Assembly: GCA_913046215.1 (NCBI GenBank)
Contig: CAJWRJ010000014.1
Span: 1 to 39,998 of the forward strand
DNA from: an uncultured Legionellales bacterium
Lineage (GTDB): Bacteria; Pseudomonadota; Gammaproteobacteria; Eutrophobiales; Eutrophobiaceae
DNA length: 39,998 nucleotides
Direction of reading: 5' to 3'
Every line of letters begins with the position of its first letter. Position 1 is the first letter of the stretch. Below, piece after piece: positions 19,366 through 33,656 of this stretch. The notes beneath the pieces are model-generated. The model worked only from the letters and a program-made list of their open reading frames with translations, did no database searches and was not told the DNA's origin. The position numbers and the translations under genes were made by a program.

Positions 19366-20061
19366 ATGAAAATTTTAAATAAAATTATTTCAAAAATGAA
19401 TACTGGTAAAAAAAATCAGTCGAAAACTATTACAGTTTCAACTAAATTAGATAGCAATAATAATAATAGGAAAAAATTATTTGAACACTGGTGTAAAAAA
19501 GAAAAATGGCTACTCTTCAATGAAGGTATTCCTCTTTTATATGCAGTAGACCCAGAGAAAAAAAATAAAATACCAGATGAATTAGTTACAAAAATAGAAA
19601 AGCTAGCGTCACATGCAAAAGAATGTGTAAAAAACAATCTTCTTCCCGTTATAAATACTGATCAATCAGAAAAAAAATGGGAAGTGAAACCTATTAATCT
19701 TTTTTCTTGGGCTACTGTTAGTAGAGTTGCAATGCCTGATGAATTTGTTTCATTAATGTCATTCATTAGTCTAACTGTTAAGCAAATTAATAATTCTGAT
19801 AGTAATGAGAACACTAATAGTATAAATCATGTAAATAGAGAAATTACACTAGGGGCTGCTATATCTATTTTAGTTAATGCACCTAATTCCTCTAGAAATG
19901 CTAATGAACATATTGATAGTATCAGCATAGTTCAAGAGATTCTAAAAAATGAAAAACACTGGTTTAAAGACACTGAGCGTAAACTATCGGAAGCCGAAAT
20001 GGTTCAACTTATTAATGAGTATTTAAAGTTTTCTAAACCTTTGTATTTAAATAAAATCTAA
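19366..20061 (+). CDS. Hypothetical protein, Lys/Asn-rich, downstream of tilS
   Basis: I do not recognise this 231-residue protein. It starts 3 bases after the tilS stop, so it is probably co-transcribed. It has no signal peptide or membrane segment and looks cytoplasmic. The first 35 residues are basic and low-complexity (K, N, T, S). Two better-defined parts follow: residues about 36-125, with WCKKEKWLLFNEGIPLLYAVDPE and PINLFSWATVSRVAMPDEF (W-x-x-x-E-x-x-x-L-L, then D-P), and a C-terminal helical part, residues about 160-230, with LGAAISILVNAPNSSRN and LSEAEMVQLINEYLKF. Its stop abuts the stop of the opposing gene at 20062. Only a small uncharacterised family is expected. Confidence 0.8.
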   Translation: MKILNKIISKMNTGKKNQSKTITVSTKLDSNNNNRKKLFEHWCKKEKWLLFNEGIPLLYAVDPEKKNKIPDELVTKIEKLASHAKECVKNNLLPVINTDQSEKKWEVKPINLFSWATVSRVAMPDEFVSLMSFISLTVKQINNSDSNENTNSINHVNREITLGAAISILVNAPNSSRNANEHIDSISIVQEILKNEKHWFKDTERKLSEAEMVQLINEYLKFSKPLYLNKI

Positions 20062-20574
20062 TTATTTATCAGGAAATAAAGGGTCTGGTAAATCATAAAA
20101 CTCTATTTTTATAGATTTAACCCCACGTTTTTGTTCAGTAACTTCAGCAAAAGCATCATCCGGTTCTTTAAATTCTCCAATCTGTGCAATATTATTATCT
20201 AATTTTGCATTAACATTGATAATTTTTTCATGTAATTCAGGTGAATAATCAAACTCATAAGCCCTTGGATCACTTAAATCTGTCATATTATTAATTTTCG
20301 ATAACCACAAGTAAATTATACCAGCAGTATTTTTTTCTTTATCTGGTTGTTCTACATGAGCAGCTAGTAATCTAAATTGGGTTGGTGGATCCTGCGTAGT
20401 TGGCCATCCAAGTAAAGCTGGAAAAGAAAAATAAGTTATCACATAAAACGCTGATGTAATAACAATTGCCCCAGCCTTTAATTGCCAAGGCCATTTTGAA
20501 TAAAGATTAATGCTAAGTAGTAATACTGCTAATAGTATATATGCTGCAATAATTCCTGTTATTCCTAATGTCAC
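20062..20574 (-). CDS. Small membrane protein of the MotA-like cassette
   Basis: This 170-residue protein is the last gene of the five-gene - strand set. Two N-terminal hydrophobic segments (about residues 4-24 and 31-54) are followed by a soluble domain with LGWPTTQDPPTQFRLLAAHV, IIYLWLSKIN, RAYEFDYSPELHEKI and a C-terminal FYDLPDPLFPDK. I have no name for the family; the segments GWPT, RLLAAHVEQPD, YSPELHE and FYDLP look like conserved islands because they are less A/T-driven than the rest. It starts 15 bases after the preceding gene, so the two are almost certainly co-expressed. Function unknown; it may be an accessory of the channel pair upstream. Confidence 0.8.
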   Translation of the reverse strand: MTLGITGIIAAYILLAVLLLSINLYSKWPWQLKAGAIVITSAFYVITYFSFPALLGWPTTQDPPTQFRLLAAHVEQPDKEKNTAGIIYLWLSKINNMTDLSDPRAYEFDYSPELHEKIINVNAKLDNNIAQIGEFKEPDDAFAEVTEQKRGVKSIKIEFYDLPDPLFPDK

Positions 20575-20589
20575 AATAATTTCTCCGTT

Positions 20590-21183
20590 TTAATTAACAA
20601 TTACAAGAGGTTTTGGAAGAAAATTAATTCCTGAAACTTTACCATTACGTGTGATACTGAAACGAACCGCCGTTTTTTCATCACCCTTTTTTTGAAGATT
20701 CACAGTACCGTAATAAACAATTTCTAACTTTGGGTTAACTTTAGCTAATCTAACGTTAACATCGACTGGTTTATTGGTTTCTGATGCATAGTAATGTAGA
20801 TTAACAATATATTCACCTTTAACGACACCTCTTAATGTAACTACCTCCTGATTTAGTGGGTTTTGAACTTCTTCTCCATTAATTATTATGGTGTCATTAA
20901 CAAGTCCACGATCATCACGATCTAAATGTAATAATCCAGCTTCTGTTGCTCTAAAATAAACTAGTTGTCCTTCAGGGTCTTCCACCCATACATCAATATC
21001 ATCCGGGCTATTATCCTTCCATGTTATTGTAAGTATGTATTCCGCTTTTGGGTCGATAATACCCGTTTTTGCCTCTGGATTCATAAACATAATTGCAACA
21101 AGAAAAAGAAAGGTAAAACCTAGCAGCGCATTAAATAACAAGTCAGTAAAAGGATCAGAGCGAAAACGATCTTTAGTACGCAT
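20590..21183 (-). CDS. One-helix periplasmic protein, MotB/ExbD-like membrane segment
   Basis: The 197-residue product has one membrane helix near the N-terminus (about residues 15-35, after FRSDPFT) and a periplasmic beta-rich domain. Asp14 sits at the membrane edge in DLLFNALLGFTFLF. Its place resembles the proton-carrying Asp of MotB (D-F-V-x-A-M-M-A-F-F) and ExbD, and the gene is 4 bases downstream of a MotA/TolQ-type gene, so I infer a stator B-subunit. The periplasmic part is not OmpA-like. It contains TWKDNSPDDIDVWVEDPEG and HLDRDDRG, then GEYIVNLHYY, resembling DUF2135/carbohydrate-binding-like beta sandwiches. No peptidoglycan-binding motif was seen. Confidence 0.82.
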   Translation of the reverse strand: MRTKDRFRSDPFTDLLFNALLGFTFLFLVAIMFMNPEAKTGIIDPKAEYILTITWKDNSPDDIDVWVEDPEGQLVYFRATEAGLLHLDRDDRGLVNDTIIINGEEVQNPLNQEVVTLRGVVKGEYIVNLHYYASETNKPVDVNVRLAKVNPKLEIVYYGTVNLQKKGDEKTAVRFSITRNGKVSGINFLPKPLVIVN

Positions 21184-21187
21184 TTTT

Positions 21188-21928
21188 CTAATTATTATTT
21201 ATTTTTGGAATTACGTGGACATGTGTCATATGTCGCGTCATTTCAATTAGTCCATCAACATGCCTATCAATCATATGGTATTGCATTGCTGATAATACAC
21301 TTGCAATGAGGCCAGTTAGAGTTGTATATAAAGCAGTACCCATTCCATTACTCATATGTCTAAGAATTTTTTGCATATTACTTACATCAAAGTCTGCAAT
21401 ATTGGCAACCGATCCAAGCATGAAAATAAAACCAATTATTGTTCCTAATAATCCAAGTTTTAGCATTACATCAGAGACGAACCAACCTATTTCCTGAGGT
21501 CCTTTCAGTCTTGAATTATATACATCATTGAGATCCGATGATGAACCGCTTTCATCATTATCGGAAACCTTACCATTACGATAAAATAAATCTTTAATAT
21601 ATTCAGTCATGAGACATTGAGGTAATTTAATTTTTGAATTAATTAACACTCTTTCATCATTAATATGTATTTTTATTTTATCTTCATTTCTAATTATTTT
21701 TTCAATTTTTCTTGATAGATTCGTTTCTAATGAGATTGCATATATTCTTTTAGCACAATGGATAGTAACAAGTATATAGACTAGTGAAATAGCCATTGAT
21801 ATATGACTTTTGTCCACACTATAAAGCATAAGAATTACACCTTCATGCCATGCAACAATAACAGTGAAAATAATAAGCCCTGTAAGAATGAGCCATTTAA
21901 GTAGCAGTATATGTTCGGGTTCTTTCAT
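21188..21928 (-). CDS. MotA/TolQ/ExbB-family proton channel protein (four-helix type)
   Basis: The 246-residue protein has four predicted membrane segments: about residues 11-30, 42-60, 153-175 and 195-217. The second pair carries the family core: KLGLLGTIIGFIFMLGSV (157-174) and MSNGMGTALYTTLTGLIAS (192-210). A cytoplasmic loop of about 90 residues separates the pairs. Two N-terminal helices make it closer to MotA than to three-helix ExbB/TolQ. With the one-helix partner 4 bases downstream, the pair is expected to form a proton-driven 5:2-type motor. It is not near flagellar genes. The start ATG at 21928 lies 38 bases after a lipoprotein gene. Confidence 0.88.
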   Translation of the reverse strand: MKEPEHILLLKWLILTGLIIFTVIVAWHEGVILMLYSVDKSHISMAISLVYILVTIHCAKRIYAISLETNLSRKIEKIIRNEDKIKIHINDERVLINSKIKLPQCLMTEYIKDLFYRNGKVSDNDESGSSSDLNDVYNSRLKGPQEIGWFVSDVMLKLGLLGTIIGFIFMLGSVANIADFDVSNMQKILRHMSNGMGTALYTTLTGLIASVLSAMQYHMIDRHVDGLIEMTRHMTHVHVIPKINNN

Positions 21929-21966
21929 TTTATTATTTTTGTCCTGATCATTACCTAGGTATCTTT

Positions 21967-22446
21967 TTATTTGTCTAGGTCGAGAATAAAAGGATCCTCA
22001 GAAGCTGCGTATTCTACCATTTTCACTAAGATATTATTCATTTTTAATGCAAAATTATTTAGTTTTGTTGAGCCAGTATTTATTGGCATAAGGCGAGTTG
22101 CAATGAAGGTTTCATTATTTTGTTGATTAATAGTAATTTTATAAGGGCAAAAATTTATATAATCAGGTTCTAGAATTAGCATTTCTTCAGCTAGTGATAA
22201 ATTACAAAACAATATTATTTCATTTTTTGGAAATTTTTTTTCTTTCCTTTCTTGTATGGATTCACCAATATTTAATCTATTCACAACACGAAAATTATTT
22301 TCAGTTATTGCAAACTCAACATCTTGAATAATATCATCAAAATTTTTCGTTGAAATTTTCTTATGTATTTCACTATTATTATTTGAGCATGCAAAAAGTA
22401 TAGTTAAAAAGCATATGAGCACAGAATGATACTTAAGATTATTCAT
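21967..22446 (-). CDS. DUF302-like lipoprotein
   Basis: The 159-residue precursor starts with a signal sequence and a likely lipobox LFAC at residues 17-20, so mature protein would be lipid-anchored at Cys20. The body has NFDDIIQDVEFAITENNFRV shortened to FDDIIQDVEFAITEN, FPKNEIILFCNLSLAEEML and PDYINFCPYKITI, a layout that matches the DUF302 fold (a domain often involved in periplasmic ligand or metal binding; function poorly known). Identification rests on pattern memory only. It lies 47 bases downstream of the L,D-transpeptidase and 38 bases upstream of the MotA-like gene, all on the same strand. Confidence 0.72.
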   Translation of the reverse strand: MNNLKYHSVLICFLTILFACSNNNSEIHKKISTKNFDDIIQDVEFAITENNFRVVNRLNIGESIQERKEKKFPKNEIILFCNLSLAEEMLILEPDYINFCPYKITINQQNNETFIATRLMPINTGSTKLNNFALKMNNILVKMVEYAASEDPFILDLDK

Positions 22447-22493
22447 AATTTTTCAACTCATTAATATCGTAAAGATTTAGTTAGAATTACTGA

Positions 22494-23057
22494 TTATTCT
22501 TTTATAACAACCATTGTACCAATATCTATATATTTCATAAGGTCATTTATATCATGATTTGTTAAGGCGATACATCCATCAGTCCAATTTAGATCTTGAT
22601 GGATTGCTAATTTTTGCTTAGTAATTTTCCCGATACCATGAATTCCTATTTGTCCTCCAAGTTTTGTATCTTGAGGCGGAAATTCACGCTTTTTATAGGC
22701 TAGGGCGATTCTTTTAAAATCTAATCCGTCAATTATTTCGTTTTTAAAACCATACCATGCATCAATTAGATTTGGATAGTTAAGCTGTATGAAATAATGA
22801 AAGCGGTTACTCTTTTTCAAGTTTGATATACGATACACACCAATTGGAGTTTTACTGTCACCACGTTTTCTTTTTGTACCTTTACCACCTTTTCCTGTAG
22901 CAATATGATACTTTTTTACAATTGTATTTGATTTTTTCAATATTAGTTCTTTGTCATTTTTTTTAACGATAATTGTGTATTCGTCACTGGCATTTGCAGT
23001 TAGTGATATAAAACCTATAAATATAGAGAGTGATAGTGTAATTAATTTTTTGTTCAC
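22494..23057 (-). CDS. L,D-transpeptidase family protein (YkuD domain)
   Basis: The 187-residue precursor has a signal peptide (cut near residues 23-24, TANA-SD) and a YkuD catalytic domain. The active-site residues are His140 in GIHGIGK and Cys162 in NWTDGCIAL, giving the H-x16+-[S/T]-x-G-C order of this class, nearer to YafK/DpaA-like enzymes than to YbiS. Substrate may be peptidoglycan: forming 3-3 crosslinks, or attaching or releasing a lipoprotein. It is the first gene of the - strand set that ends with the MotA-like cassette. The promoter must be in the 112-base divergent spacer shared with the cytochrome b561 gene. Confidence 0.88.
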   Translation of the reverse strand: MNKKLITLSLSIFIGFISLTANASDEYTIIVKKNDKELILKKSNTIVKKYHIATGKGGKGTKRKRGDSKTPIGVYRISNLKKSNRFHYFIQLNYPNLIDAWYGFKNEIIDGLDFKRIALAYKKREFPPQDTKLGGQIGIHGIGKITKQKLAIHQDLNWTDGCIALTNHDINDLMKYIDIGTMVVIKE

Positions 23058-28201: not shown

Positions 28202-29437
28202 TTAGATATTTTTATTTTTCTCTTTTTTTCTTTTGATGTTGTCTAGCCACCATCTTGCCTGTTCTTCCGTTGCTTTATCTGATAGTGCTTGTTCAAAAGA
28301 TAAAGCAGCTTCAGCTAAGTTTTCAATATTAAACTGAGCAATCCCTAGAAGTAAATTTATTTTAGATTTAAGAGTAAGATCCTCAGATTCTAGCTCAACA
28401 TTTAGTATTTCATTTGCATTATTCCAATTCTCATTTTCAATATATAGTTGACCAAGACGTAGTCTAGAATTTTCATCATTATATAAATTAATAATTTCTA
28501 TAAATACAGATTCAGCTTTATCATTTTCCTGAGCTAATATCCAGCTATCTACAAGCATCGTTAGCATTTCTAGTGATGTATCAATTCTGCCAGTAGCTAT
28601 TTCTTTTTCTAATATTAGTGCTGCTTTGAAAGGATTTTCAAAATATAAATAATTTTTACAAAGCTGAACTATTTGTTTTTTTTTCAAAAAATCTTTTGCA
28701 TATGCAAGCTCATATACAGCTAATGCTTTCTTATCTCTACCGAGCTGTTGATAAATACCAGCAAGTTGAATCCAATATTTCTTTTTTGCAGGATATTTGA
28801 TAATAATATCCTCAAGAGTTAATGCAGCGTTATCAAAATCATTAGTTTCATAATAACCAGATAACAATAATTCATACCAATTTAATGGAGGTGTTTTGGT
28901 TAGAGAAACTGCTTTACTTGCATATGAAATTACTTCTTGATGATTTTCGAGATAATAATAGGCGGTAGCCGCTAATATGTACGCCTCAGGTTCAGGCTTT
29001 TTTTCATTTTCGAACCATTTTAAAATATAATTGAGACCTTCTTGGTATTTTTCCGAGTAAATCAGCAATTGAGTGACTGTGTAATAAAGTTTATGCGTTA
29101 CTTCTTCTGGAAGTGCATCATATGATAATGCTTTAACAAAACTCTCAGCCGATGCTTTAAAATCACCTAGATTATTATGAATATATCCGACTGTTTGGTG
29201 AACAACTGCCGCATCATAATCTTTTATATTGCCTGCAGCTATCATCTTTAGAAGTTTTTGTAATGCTTCATCATTCTTTCCTTCATCAATATCATTCTGA
29301 ACATTTTTGAGTACCGAGTGCGTACCTGTTTGTAAAGAGTAAGAGGTACTTTTAGCTAAAACAGAACATGTAAACATTAAAAGTGCAAATGTTAAAAGAA
29401 GAAAATATGATAGATTTTTTATATGTATATGCATCAT
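28202..29437 (-). CDS. TPR-repeat protein of the TonB2 cluster
   Basis: The 411-residue precursor has an N-terminal signal (residues about 1-28, ending SVLA-KS) and then tetratricopeptide-like helical repeats through most of its length (e.g. AVVHQTVGYIHNNLGDFKAS and YWIQLAGIYQQLGRDKKAL, each within a 34-residue spacing, and a final LLLGIAQFNIENLAEAALSF). It overlaps the tonB gene by 4 bases and comes last in the exbB-exbD-tonB order, as the TPR protein does in TonB2 clusters of marine gammaproteobacteria. Expected role: a periplasmic scaffold for TonB2-dependent uptake. Ligand unknown. Confidence 0.9.
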   Translation of the reverse strand: MMHIHIKNLSYFLLLTFALLMFTCSVLAKSTSYSLQTGTHSVLKNVQNDIDEGKNDEALQKLLKMIAAGNIKDYDAAVVHQTVGYIHNNLGDFKASAESFVKALSYDALPEEVTHKLYYTVTQLLIYSEKYQEGLNYILKWFENEKKPEPEAYILAATAYYYLENHQEVISYASKAVSLTKTPPLNWYELLLSGYYETNDFDNAALTLEDIIIKYPAKKKYWIQLAGIYQQLGRDKKALAVYELAYAKDFLKKKQIVQLCKNYLYFENPFKAALILEKEIATGRIDTSLEMLTMLVDSWILAQENDKAESVFIEIINLYNDENSRLRLGQLYIENENWNNANEILNVELESEDLTLKSKINLLLGIAQFNIENLAEAALSFEQALSDKATEEQARWWLDNIKRKKEKNKNI

Positions 29438-30117
29438 TTTTTTAGAGTAAATTTTATATCTTGTCTAGCACGTTTTTCAACAGGTTGTCCGTCCACCATA
29501 TCAGGATTAAATTTCCACTTAGCGATAGCTCTTAATACTGATTTATCAAATATGTTAGGGGGATTCGATTCAATAATTTCAGCATCTTTAACTGATCCAT
29601 CTATTGTAATTGTAAATTCAACAGTTACATTGCCCTCTATTTTACTTCGAAGCGCCCGTTTTGGATAAACCGGCGGAATTCTAAGAGATGGTACAACATT
29701 GCTGTCTATATTTGGTTTACCAGGTCTTCCTAAGGCGCTTGAATCCCCTGATCCACTAAATTCACCGAGATATGGATCTCCAGCTATGGACATTGGAATG
29801 TCAATTTCTGGTTCTGGGAGTTCAACATCCATTTGCTGAGGTTTATCCACTGCAGGTGTTGGCATTTCAGGAGGAGGCGGATCTTCCTCTTCGGGCGGAG
29901 GCTCAATATCTTCAATTTTTTCTGGCGGCGGAACTGGTTTTTCAATAACTCGAGTAAAATCCAGAAAATTTCTATCTATTAGGTCTATATTAAATCCTTG
30001 TTCTCTACTAACAAGCTTCTGAATTAAAATAAATATCGCTATATTTAATAATAATGCAAGTAAAAGAAGCGTTGGTAATTTTACATTTTCTAAAATATTG
30101 ATTCTTGGTATTTTCAT
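29434..30117 (-). CDS. TonB protein (TonB2 type)
   Basis: TonB couples proton-driven ExbB-ExbD to outer-membrane receptors. The 227-residue product has one N-terminal membrane helix (about residues 14-33), then a proline-rich spacer from about 56 to 90 (PVPPPEK, EPPPEEEDPPPPEMP) alternating with acidic residues, and a C-terminal TonB domain (about 145-227) with PPVYPKRALRSKIEGNVTV, IIESNPPNIFDKSVLRAI and WKFNP. The short spacer and the neighbours fit the TonB2 class rather than classic TonB1. The acidic, not lysine-rich, spacer is a mild oddity. It begins 17 bases after exbD and overlaps the TPR gene by 4 bases. Confidence 0.95.
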   Translation of the reverse strand: MKIPRINILENVKLPTLLLLALLLNIAIFILIQKLVSREQGFNIDLIDRNFLDFTRVIEKPVPPPEKIEDIEPPPEEEDPPPPEMPTPAVDKPQQMDVELPEPEIDIPMSIAGDPYLGEFSGSGDSSALGRPGKPNIDSNVVPSLRIPPVYPKRALRSKIEGNVTVEFTITIDGSVKDAEIIESNPPNIFDKSVLRAIAKWKFNPDMVDGQPVEKRARQDIKFTLKK

Positions 30118-30134
30118 CGTAAAAATTAATATTT

Positions 30135-30545
30135 TTATTGCTGTTCATTCGATGCTGCGATTGAAACATTAGTTACTCCAGCAAGACGAACTTGATCAAG
30201 CACTTCAACAGTAATCCCCGTTCTTGAATTCTGATCAGCAAGTATAATTATTGTGCCTTCAGGATTTTGAGCATGCTCTCTTTCAACATAGGAACGAACA
30301 GCATTAACTTCAATTTTATTATTATCAATCCATACCTCACCTTCTTTACTAACAGCAATTATCATACTACCTTGTTCTTCTCTTACAGCTGATTTAGCAG
30401 TTGGCCTATCAACATCGATACCGGATTCTTTAGTAAAAGATGATGTTACCAAAAAGAAAATTAATAATATAAATACTGTGTCAATTAGTGGCGTAAGATT
30501 TATATCTTCAACTTTTGATTCTTGTTTTGAATGTACTTGTCTCAT
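30135..30545 (-). CDS. exbD: Biopolymer transport protein ExbD
   Basis: ExbD is the one-helix partner of ExbB and carries protons through an Asp in its membrane segment. The 136-residue product shows VEDINLTPLIDTVFILLIFF with Asp22 at the expected place, followed by a periplasmic domain (about residues 45-136, including IIAVSKEGEVWIDNNKI and IIILADQNSRTGITVEVLD). ExbD2-type proteins of this length are usual in TonB2 clusters. It lies 4 bases after exbB and 17 bases before tonB, so the three are one transcription unit. Confidence 0.95.
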   Translation of the reverse strand: MRQVHSKQESKVEDINLTPLIDTVFILLIFFLVTSSFTKESGIDVDRPTAKSAVREEQGSMIIAVSKEGEVWIDNNKIEVNAVRSYVEREHAQNPEGTIIILADQNSRTGITVEVLDQVRLAGVTNVSIAASNEQQ

Positions 30546-30549
30546 AAAA

Positions 30550-31101
30550 TTACTGTGTTAATAAATCTTGAATTTTATTTAATTTCTTATCTGTCGTTAA
30601 TGCATCTTTTGCAATCATTTCACTAGTTTTTGCTCGTTTTGTGAGATCAGCTGTAAAATAAATTCCGATAATGGATGTAGCTAACCCTGCAGTTGTTGGT
30701 AGCAATGCTCTTGATATTCCCTCTGCCATACCTCGAGCATTTCCCATGCCAAAAACATTCAGCACCTCAAATATTGAGATCATACCTGTAACTGTACCAA
30801 GCAATCCAAGCAAAGGAAGTAAGCCTGTTAGCGTTTGAATAGGAATGAGATTATGTTTTACCTCAGTTGATATCTCACTTATAAGACCATCTTTAATTCT
30901 AAGGGCATACCATGATGAATGATCTTGTCTATCTTGCCACCTCTTAACAATTTTATTGATTCTAATTGGGCATATTTTAAATAGGAAATAATAACGCTCT
31001 AATATAAGAACCCATAATATGATAGAAAGAAAAAAAATACTCACTAAGACGGGACCGCCTTTTGAAAAAAAATCTCTCATCATTTCAATTTGATCAAACA
31101 T
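30550..31101 (-). CDS. exbB: ExbB/TolQ-family proton channel protein
   Basis: The 183-residue inner-membrane protein forms the proton channel with ExbD. A first helix (about residues 15-35) is followed by a cytoplasmic loop, then the two-helix core LLPLLGLLGTVTGMISIFEV and SRALLPTTAGLATSIIGIYF, both family signatures. It is the short ExbB2 type. It lies 38 bases downstream of the TtpC-like gene and 4 before exbD, and it is the second of three MotA/TolQ-type proteins in the window, the others being at 21188-21928 and 31140-32582. Confidence 0.95.
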   Translation of the reverse strand: MFDQIEMMRDFFSKGGPVLVSIFFLSIILWVLILERYYFLFKICPIRINKIVKRWQDRQDHSSWYALRIKDGLISEISTEVKHNLIPIQTLTGLLPLLGLLGTVTGMISIFEVLNVFGMGNARGMAEGISRALLPTTAGLATSIIGIYFTADLTKRAKTSEMIAKDALTTDKKLNKIQDLLTQ

Positions 31102-31139
31102 TTTTATGTTGCTCTAATTATCTACTCTTTTATTTATAA

Positions 31140-32582
31140 TTATCCATCATCCGGTATTACAAATTCTGGTTCATCGCTATCTGCTGCACTTGGTTTAGAT
31201 TTATCTTCTTTTTTAACATTTTGATGTTGCGATGATTGACCAAAAACTTTTCTTCGATTTTCTTCAGCCAAAATGGCGACATAAGCCATACTCTTTTCAT
31301 CTAGAATTTGGATCAATGTATTACTTTTAGAAGACAGATAGCCATGAAAAAGAAGTAGTGGTATAGCTACTAGAAGTCCCATTACCGTAGTTACAAGAGC
31401 TTGAGATATACCACCCGACATGACTCGAGGATCGCCTGTTCCATATAGTGTTATCGATTGGAAAGTTTCGATAATACCGGTTACCGTTCCAAGTAGCCCT
31501 AATAATGGAGAAACGGCTGCAAGTAATGCTATTGTCCATAGACCACGCTGTAGTTTTGGCATTTCCTTTAAAATGGCCTCATCTAGTTTCAATCCAAGAG
31601 TTTCAGCATCAATTTCTGGATTATTTTTATAGACTAGCATAATACGTCCGAGCGCATTTTCATCAGGCTCCTCTTTTTGAAGTTGTTCATTAACTTTACG
31701 AGCTGTAATGAACAAAACAATTAATCTTTCAATAGCCAACAACAAACCAACAAACCCAATTATTAATATTACGTAACCTATTAGGCCGCCTTGCTCAATT
31801 CTATTTTTAAGATCAGGGACTTGAACTAGCAGAGCCAACATCGCACCGCGTGTTGGATCAATAGGAAAAGGGTAGATGCCGGTCTCTGGAGATTTAATTT
31901 CTCTTGCCATTTCTAAAAAACGTTGTCCCGGCTGTCTTCCTGGTTCCATTAATATTCCAGATTCTGGAAGAGATCTTAAAAAACGTCCATCTGATACAGC
32001 ATTAAAAACACCGATACGAGTAATATCTTGTTCTACTTCATTGCCTGCCGCTGTAATTATTTTTCCTTTAAATTGAACTACTTTTCCAGATTCAACCATT
32101 TCATCCATAGCTAATAACCAAAGTTCCTCTAATTCATCATATGATGGCAATTCCTTACGCGTTGATAAAATATCAAGTATTTTATCTCTATCAGGTTTTT
32201 GTGCGGAAACTAGAGATGTATCAATTATAGAATCAAGTTCGGCAGCAATTTGTTTAACGATTCCATCAAGCTCTCCAAGTGTTCCCATTTTTTCGTCTAG
32301 TATTTCTTTCTGTTTTTTTATTTCAATATCATAGCTTTCATATGTTGCTTTTAATGATACGCTTCGATCTTCCTCTTCTTTTAATTTTTTATTTGCTGAC
32401 GAAAGTAATTTTTTTTGTTCATTGCGTGCATTTTTAAACTTTGATTCTCTATTTATTAATGCTTCTTTTTCTTCTACGCGCTCTCTTTTAACCTGTTCTA
32501 GCAGCTCATCTAAATTAGTTGGCTCAGCAGCATAGGTTGAGGATATTAGTAAAATGAATATTATATTTATATATCTATTCAT
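31140..32582 (-). CDS. TtpC-like protein: periplasmic coiled coil plus MotA/TolQ/ExbB domain
   Basis: This 480-residue protein has a signal peptide (about residues 1-19), a long charged helical stretch (about 20-115, heptad-like, KKLKEEEDRSVSLKATYES shortened), a middle soluble region, and a C-terminal three-helix MotA/TolQ/ExbB domain whose core is SPLLGLLGTVTGIIETFQSI and ALVTTVMGLLVAIPLLL. That is the TtpC architecture required for TonB2 function in Vibrio. I choose ATG 32582, which begins the signal peptide; a TTG at 32594 is possible. It overlaps the DUF3450 gene end by 8 bases and precedes exbB. Its tail is hydrophilic and acidic. Confidence 0.9.
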   Translation of the reverse strand: MNRYINIIFILLISSTYAAEPTNLDELLEQVKRERVEEKEALINRESKFKNARNEQKKLLSSANKKLKEEEDRSVSLKATYESYDIEIKKQKEILDEKMGTLGELDGIVKQIAAELDSIIDTSLVSAQKPDRDKILDILSTRKELPSYDELEELWLLAMDEMVESGKVVQFKGKIITAAGNEVEQDITRIGVFNAVSDGRFLRSLPESGILMEPGRQPGQRFLEMAREIKSPETGIYPFPIDPTRGAMLALLVQVPDLKNRIEQGGLIGYVILIIGFVGLLLAIERLIVLFITARKVNEQLQKEEPDENALGRIMLVYKNNPEIDAETLGLKLDEAILKEMPKLQRGLWTIALLAAVSPLLGLLGTVTGIIETFQSITLYGTGDPRVMSGGISQALVTTVMGLLVAIPLLLFHGYLSSKSNTLIQILDEKSMAYVAILAEENRRKVFGQSSQHQNVKKEDKSKPSAADSDEPEFVIPDDG

Positions 32583-33483
32583 AATTTTTACCAAGTATTG
32601 AGACAGGTAATTTTATTAACTCAGGAGGGGCTTGTTTTTTTGCAATTAAAAGACCTTTACCAATCGAGCGATTATAATCTGATGGCAATTTTCTCCAAGC
32701 TTTAGAGTGTTTATTCCAGACACCGCTTAACTCACCATCAGATGTTTGAAACACCATAATCAAGCGACCAACCCGTAAAATATCAACAGTATATTCTTCA
32801 TTATCAACAGTAATCGTATCGTTATATGCCTCAATTGTTCGTCCGTATTCAATTTCAATTTGGTAGGCTTCCATAACGCGGCGATATTTATCCGGTAAAG
32901 TTATATCGGGAAAGTTTATAATTTGTTTTAATGTAGCAACACGTTGACGTCTTTCATCTAAGAGAAAAGGAAGATCAAGCCTTACAAATTTTTCAAGAGT
33001 CTCAATCATTTTATTTATGAATGGAACAATGGTTCTTTGAGTTTCCTCTGCATTTTCAAGTTGTCTTTGTATTGAGCTAAGAGAAAGTTTTTGTTGATCA
33101 ACTAGTTTTGCTAGTTGTTTGTTATATGAGGTAAGGCTTTCAGTTTTTCGAATTGCATTGCGATAAACTAGGACCATATCCCTTGTTTCATCTGTTAATT
33201 CATCTATTGTATTTTGAGATTTTACAGCCTCTTCTTGAGCCTCTATTTTTTCTTCAACTGCAGCATTCAGTGTCTTTTCTATATCAGCCTCAGTTGGTGT
33301 ATTTTGTTGATCAGTATTTTCTTCAGTTTTATTGCCTTCATCTTCTTGAGTTACCACAGGTTCCGAGGTTTCAATATCAGGATTTTCTTTGTTTGCAGGA
33401 TCGTCAGCTGCAGCGTAGGCAACAATAAACAGCGAAATACCTAAAAAATATGAAGCAAAGAAATATTTTATGTATTTTTCCAT
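32575..33483 (-). CDS. DUF3450 family protein of the TonB2 cluster
   Basis: The roughly 302-residue precursor starts, by my choice, at ATG 33483, which opens a clean signal peptide (MEKYIKYFF to about residue 25, AYAAA-DD); an upstream in-frame ATG at 33516 would add 11 residues. A charged low-complexity segment (Glu, Asn, Thr, residues about 30-60) leads into a long helical coiled-coil region (about 65-165) and a conserved C-terminal part with LPFLLDERRQRVATLKQII and FQTSDGELSGVWNKHSKAW. DUF3450 proteins are standard in TonB2 operons, always before TtpC. Periplasmic; precise role not known. The last 8 bases overlap the ttpC-like gene. Confidence 0.88.
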   Translation of the reverse strand: MEKYIKYFFASYFLGISLFIVAYAAADDPANKENPDIETSEPVVTQEDEGNKTEENTDQQNTPTEADIEKTLNAAVEEKIEAQEEAVKSQNTIDELTDETRDMVLVYRNAIRKTESLTSYNKQLAKLVDQQKLSLSSIQRQLENAEETQRTIVPFINKMIETLEKFVRLDLPFLLDERRQRVATLKQIINFPDITLPDKYRRVMEAYQIEIEYGRTIEAYNDTITVDNEEYTVDILRVGRLIMVFQTSDGELSGVWNKHSKAWRKLPSDYNRSIGKGLLIAKKQAPPELIKLPVSILGKNYE

Positions 33484-33656
33484 TAGGAATTTTTCCCTAT
33501 TGTTTATATAGTTCAAAATGTATTGGTGGTATTGTAAATTAACATTTGAGCTTTTACATAGAAATTTTAATATATTTAATTGAAAATTATCACATTTCTA
33601 TAACAATAGGCCATGTATTTTGACTATAAATAGCTGCATGAAGAGGTGAGAGTTAG
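33484..33656. promoter_or_regulatory. Divergent promoter region, TonB2 cluster and MoxY-like kinase
   Basis: This 173-base spacer separates the - strand TonB2 operon from the + strand kinase gene. It contains an inverted pair CCTATTGTT (33496-33504) and AACAATAGG (33602-33610), 97 bases apart, and an imperfect TTGT-N6-ACAT (33532-33545). I cannot assign -35/-10 boxes with confidence. A GAGGTGAGAG stretch just before the kinase ATG is a reasonable ribosome site. Confidence 0.4.

Follow-up and report, generated by a model that had tools for sequence, protein, structure and literature searches.

A conserved three-gene membrane unit with a MotA/TolQ/ExbB-type subunit and a candidate DUF2135/TerD-type partner in proteobacteria and phages

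Few jobs are known for the proton-driven motors of the MotA/TolQ/ExbB superfamily: flagella, Tol, Ton, gliding and Zorya. The window analysed here, i.e. the whole 39,998-nucleotide stretch of a contig from an uncultured Legionellales bacterium, contains two adjacent genes which raise the question of whether they encode a further machine of this kind and, if so, on what it would act. The first-pass annotation had described them as a MotA/TolQ-type protein, hereafter A, followed after 4 bases by a one-helix subunit, hereafter B. Both open reading frames were confirmed on the minus strand, and a third gene, C, lies directly downstream. The features of this region are as follows.

20062-20574, minus strand: C subunit, 170 aa, with membrane helices at residues 2-25 and 30-55 and a small alpha/beta domain
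20590-21183, minus strand: B subunit, 197 aa, with a single membrane helix and a periplasmic beta domain
20593-21048, minus strand: periplasmic domain of B, residues 46-197, DUF2135-related, with a TerD-like predicted fold
21082-21153, minus strand: membrane helix of B, residues 11-34, with an AF2 pLDDT >90 over most of its length
21142-21144, minus strand: codon of Asp14 of B, presumed to be the proton-carrying residue from its conservation and its alignment with ExbD PLID
21188-21928, minus strand: A subunit, 246 aa, a MotA/TolQ/ExbB-type membrane protein
21967-22446, minus strand: DUF302 lipoprotein-like gene, directly upstream of A (Pfam DUF302, 2e-9)
22494-23057, minus strand: L,D-transpeptidase gene (YkuD; Pfam YkuD, 4.8e-21)

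The five genes form a closely spaced row on the minus strand (20062-23057), in which the L,D-transpeptidase, DUF302, A, B and C genes are separated, in that order, by 47, 38, 4 and 15 bases. The L,D-transpeptidase gene is likely the start of the A-B-C transcription unit, while its product is probably a conserved neighbour outside the A-B-C machine. The DUF302 gene belongs to the conserved gene row of gammaproteobacteria, as seen in the neighbour maps, and tilS, accA and dnaE are also found among the genes flanking A and B. No flagellar, Tol or TonB genes adjoin the pair, as had been noticed at first pass, and the separate, complete TonB2 system reported elsewhere in the window was found at 28202-33516 on the minus strand, where it comprises DUF3450, two ExbB-type proteins, ExbD, TonB and a TPR protein.

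With a score of 37.6 bits against a cut-off of 22.9, A belongs to the Pfam MotA_ExbB family (PF01618), and a PF01618 search of its own genome recovered it at 39.1 bits. Its hydropathy profile clearly reveals three membrane segments, and the fourth segment of the family is supplied by the conserved GMGTALYTTLTGL stretch, which bears out the four-helix MotA/TolQ-type architecture first proposed. The segments GLLGTIIGF and ALYTTLTGL are conserved, and the pore-segment residues G159, G162, T163, G166, T202 and T203 are near-constant and are retained in most distant copies as well. By profile, the closest solved relatives of A are ZorA, which ranks top, and PomA, the matches to the PomA and MotA chains being weak. 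In curated libraries, the best weak matches were ZorA, ExbB2 and TolQ, all of them far under the cut-offs.

The AF2 model of B (mean pLDDT 84) places the membrane helix at residues 11-34, with Asp14 at its start. When the first 44 residues of B were aligned by profile with the ExbD/TolR proteins of related genomes (hhalign), DPFTDLLFNALL fell over ExbD PLIDVVFLLLIFF with an E of 0.001 and Asp14 lay beneath the proton-carrying Asp of the ExbD PLID motif, in the expected register; two control membrane regions gave no such alignment with the ExbD/TolR profile. The description of B as a one-helix protein whose Asp14 aligns with a proton-carrying Asp is thus supported. This residue is D in 120 of the 130 bacterial rows and in 47 of the 48 viral rows, and its conservation extends into phage copies of only about 25-40% identity. 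In the sole viral row lacking it, an Asp is found one position off, which is probably a misalignment.

The first-pass claim depended on Asp14 being conserved in homologues, and this applies to most rows, to the window's own genus and to the phages, with the exception of one bacterial sublineage, for which the claim in its strict form fails. In about 10 of the 130 bacterial rows, Asp14 is replaced by Ala or Val, always together with a replacement of Asn18 by Lys; the carriers are large-genome alphaproteobacteria, together with three gammaproteobacterial copies. Ala/Val14 and Lys18 were observed at loci L051, L052, L066, L159-L168 and L176-L182, with the pore residues of A intact. The tree is compatible with one or more origins of this change. 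As L051, one of the three gammaproteobacterial copies, which lies inside the main chromosomal clade, has the complete gene row, the A-B-C operon can persist without Asp14. From these substitutions, the sublineage appears to have changed its pore, and a change of ion or a loss of conduction is possible.

Residues 46-197 of B are modelled by AF2 as a confident beta sandwich. In structural alignments, the top match was TerD (3ibz, Z 11.2, rmsd 3.6, 136 residues aligned), with further matches to 7jtk_A (Z 10.7), 9a6r (10.2), 2qng (9.6), 2qz7 (9.6) and 2kxt (8.7); the TerD kinship of 7jtk_A and 9a6r_B is left aside here. These top matches span Z 11.2 to 8.7 with 124-136 residues aligned, and the next unrelated fold follows at 6.3. 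TerD ranked top only after VIA realignment, and Foldseek alone gave nothing under E 0.001 for B against the PDB. At the profile level, hhalign aligned the domain with DUF2135 (98%, E 1.7e-13, 111 columns) and DUF2135 with the TerD profile (70%, E 4e-5). As the direct comparison of B with TerD fails (1%), the TerD kinship of B rests on the fold and on the DUF2135 bridge.

Searched against Pfam with E values up to 1, B matched neither ExbD (PF02472), OmpA or TerD nor the DUF2135 model itself (PF09906), and a PF02342 (TerD) search of the genome did not retrieve B and found no TerD. Since B is without any Pfam match, no OmpA domain is present, which, together with the TerD-like predicted fold, agrees with the initial description of a beta-rich end lacking OmpA. 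We take the domain to be a DUF2135/YfaP relative with a predicted TerD fold, so it can be assigned to a class beyond the D-x-D-V-W-type label first given. The suggested search for conserved residues in this domain yielded seven that are invariant over 184 rows (W55, D62, D64, P70, E113, R118 and G123), while D90 and D91 are invariant or almost so. TerD-type domains bind ligand or Ca2+. Calcium binding by the B domain is presumed from TerD, the PDB title of 2kxt naming calcium, and residues D62, D64, D90, D91 and E113 are only suggestive of it.

The combination of A and B is close to that of ExbB-ExbD and TolQ-TolR, which also comprise two adjacent genes, a multi-helix A subunit with GT..G and TT pore segments, and a one-helix B subunit with an Asp near the helix start in a P-x-x-D context. 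In contrast, B exhibits a DUF2135/TerD-type domain instead of the ExbD/TolR domain, neither TonB nor TolA/TolB/Pal is found beside the pair in the neighbour maps, and a third subunit is added. MotA-MotB and PomA-PomB share the family of A, whereas B lacks the OmpA-like peptidoglycan-binding domain of the MotB/ZorB type. With regard to Zorya, ZorA provides both the best weak library matches and the top solved match of A, but A lacks the long ZorA tail (ZorA models are about 380-700 aa), the pair is without ZorC/D/E, and A-B-C copies are themselves found in phages. A PADLOC/Zorya reading of A was ruled out by its size, the B domain and its neighbours (tilS, accA, dnaE and the L,D-transpeptidase). 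The weak matches to ZorA, ExbB2 and TolQ could nevertheless mean that A and B are ordinary members of a named system, in a divergent Tol/Ton-like or Zorya-like form. All these scores are far below the curated cut-offs, a ZorB-type OmpA domain and adjacent ZorC/D, TolA or TonB genes are missing, and a Tol set, an ExbBD pair and a TonB2 set are encoded separately in this genome. Membership of A and B in Tol, Ton or Zorya is refuted by the B domain and the gene content, which makes this explanation highly improbable.

In the TolQ-like motors for which vWA transducers were described (Mol Biol Evol 2025, PMC12204202), a VWA protein replaces ExbD or attaches like TolA. They resemble A and B in their superfamily, their undescribed function and an adjacent VWA protein, whereas here B is its own subunit of DUF2135/TerD type, and the VWA of the present loci is encoded by a fourth, sometimes absent gene, together with an FHA domain. 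DUF2135/YfaP and TerD proteins share with B the DUF2135 profile, the TerD fold and a D-x-D motif, but the B domain terminates an ExbD-like membrane subunit and Ter operon genes are absent. A paper on MotAB evolution names generic ion transporters whose domains are unexplained (PMC12505986), and Ter modules were reported in jumbo phages (PMC7824862). No A-B-C triad was found in open-access papers on MotAB evolution, vWA transducers, DUF2135, phage 16-3, TerD and phage-encoded stators.

B was present in 44 of 96 relatives, mainly of the same family, with 61-94% identity in most matches. In the three other genomes of the genus, the identity is about 93% for B, 79-82% for A and C, and 59-66% for the DUF302 gene. 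The gene after tilS (19366-20061, plus strand, in the window) is fast-evolving, with 44-49% identity within the genus and no family match. As nearly all same-family matches of B are at 61-94% identity, and B exceeds A, C and the flanking genes in conservation, the B locus is conserved far beyond chance. A scan of public species genomes yielded 247 relatives, of which 80 were kept, including gammaproteobacterial MAGs, Methylohalomonas lacus and an alphaproteobacterial group that includes MAGs named Rickettsiales/HIMB59. At bacterial loci with enough flank, A precedes B in the same orientation in 123 of 123 cases and C follows it in 122 of 123, while at viral loci A precedes it in 47 of 47 and C follows it in 40 of 47; these counts were made with profiles widened by phage members, count some contigs twice (e.g. 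L036-L074 with L075-L154, L193 with L286, and 16-3) and include rows that trained the profiles, loci L268-L303 excepted. The proposal that A and B are conserved as a unit therefore stands insofar as A precedes B in every locus, and has to be amended in that the unit comprises three genes, C included. To judge from its sequences, the triad is strongly constrained in gammaproteobacteria and in the alphaproteobacterial group that includes the Rickettsiales/HIMB59 MAGs. RodA/PBP2/MreCD genes occur near it in one alphaproteobacterial group, and the L,D-transpeptidase gene in gammaproteobacteria; this envelope theme, to which the lysis genes beside phage copies also belong, differs by lineage and is only a hint of its purpose.

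The AF2 model of C (pLDDT 78) exhibits two membrane helices and a small domain. C belongs to no Pfam family, and its fold comparison gave no match above Z 6.4, possibly just a common arrangement; with this best match, an OB fold was not adopted. For B and C together, nothing exceeded the cut-offs in Pfam or NCBIfam, PADLOC gave no match, and PHROGs gave weak matches only, among them phrog_1735 for B (E 0.003). None of the libraries searched thus gives B or C a family name, despite their strong constraint.

A fourth gene follows two patterns. In many gammaproteobacteria, it encodes a signal peptide, a VWA domain (85-239), a membrane segment (352-370) and an FHA domain (408-472), the VWA and FHA domains both exceeding the Pfam cut-offs; the VWA would be located outside and the FHA inside the membrane. 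A lipoprotein (c12), which is distantly DUF3108-like, is encoded instead in alphaproteobacteria and in the paralogues that adjoin PQQ-dependent dehydrogenases. The VWA gene had no match in the window's own genome, in a search without a positive control in the same genome. A-B-C paralogues near genes for PQQ-dependent alcohol/methanol dehydrogenases were observed at L049, L053, L058-L060, L062 and L067. At L185 (5987-9436, plus strand), a large protein, apparently VIT-VWA-TPR, bears a C-terminal DUF2135-like domain (B profile, E 3e-5), which again ties a VWA to such a domain. At L177 (6394-8624, minus strand), in one alphaproteobacterium, A-B-C is followed by a calcineurin-type phosphoesterase and by a Ser/Thr kinase that bears a Usp domain; taken with the FHA domain which the fourth gene encodes, they hint at phospho-regulation.

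This context could also fit a proton-gated sensor instead of a motor, in which a ligand or Ca2+ at the DUF2135/TerD domain, such as TerD-type domains bind, would open A/B as a small channel, and the fourth protein, which joins a VWA outside the membrane to an FHA inside it, would relay the signal to cytoplasmic phospho-signalling. Nevertheless, the FHA protein is missing from phage and HIMB59-type triads, the kinase context belongs to one examined locus, and Asp14 and the pore residues are retained, as they are in relatives that generate force. We consider such a sensor unlikely.

A, B and C probably form a proton-driven complex of the MotA/TolQ/ExbB kind which acts through the B domain on an envelope partner. 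All three would be located in one inner-membrane complex, in which A would build a ring, a pentamer by analogy, with two B helices within it, i.e. a 5:2 stoichiometry. Asp14 would carry the protons, and their entry would move A against B. The DUF2135/TerD-type domain, an acidic and probably Ca2+-binding beta sandwich, would transmit the movement to a periplasmic or cell-wall partner. C would be an obligate third membrane subunit, to which many bacteria would add the fourth protein, either the VWA/FHA protein or the lipoprotein. Compared with the motors of known function, such a complex adds a constant third subunit and a B subunit with a working end of a ligand- or calcium-binding type, which differs from those of the known members.

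The triad is also found in phages. A tblastn search of phage records found B in Rhizobium and Sinorhizobium phages: in Pootjesviridae (RL2RES, RHph_I1_9), with 36-38% identity over most of its length, and in RHph_I1_18, RHph_N3_19, 16-3, AP-16-3, NV1.1.1 and TM3_3_14B. In the five phages examined beyond Pootjesviridae, B is flanked by A (E 3e-15 to 3e-6) and C (5e-5 to 0.01). IMG/VR provided 23 further B loci with a phage-alignment query and 13 with the B of L063 as query, whereas the window-family alignment and the queries with single phage sequences each gave one locus. The viral carriers are rhizobial isolates (16-3, RL2RES) and marine contigs.

The A protein of phages is reduced to 113-158 aa, and in several phages the triad adjoins genes for a protease (phrog_9683; 16-3, TM3_3_14B, L184, L193, L275, L283), endolysins (L184, L193, L283, L293) or Rz-like spanins (L193). 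Both features would suit holin-like phage copies, which dissipate the membrane potential or aid lysis, the bacterial copies having been domesticated from phage. However, the Pootjesviridae triad is located among replication genes, the C-terminal domain of B is retained although superfluous for a simple hole, and the bacterial copies are deep, syntenic and chromosomal, so this explanation appears quite improbable. Under the proton-driven complex favoured here, phages would have the minimal A-B-C set, probably directed at the envelope of the host in the course of infection or lysis. It is conceivable, and we propose it tentatively, that phages carry and use their own proton-driven envelope machine, A-B-C with a DUF2135/TerD working domain and a kinship to flagellar and Tol/Ton motors, which bacteria would have taken from phages or phages from bacteria, where it is a core chromosomal system. 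To our knowledge, this would be the first case of phages carrying a whole set of such motor genes. As Methylohalomonas lacus, Azospirillum and Sinorhizobium phage 16-3 are cultured carriers, A-B-C is directly testable.

Two further observations concern the window's genus. L063 (G005:C50), which was binned with a genome of the same genus, encodes an endolysin-like M15 peptidase, A-B-C and an SGNH hydrolase; viral contigs 98% identical to it exist, and it is evidently a marine phage contig. The 1.4 Mb genome itself retains Tol, the ExbBD pair, TonB2 and the A-B-C unit together.
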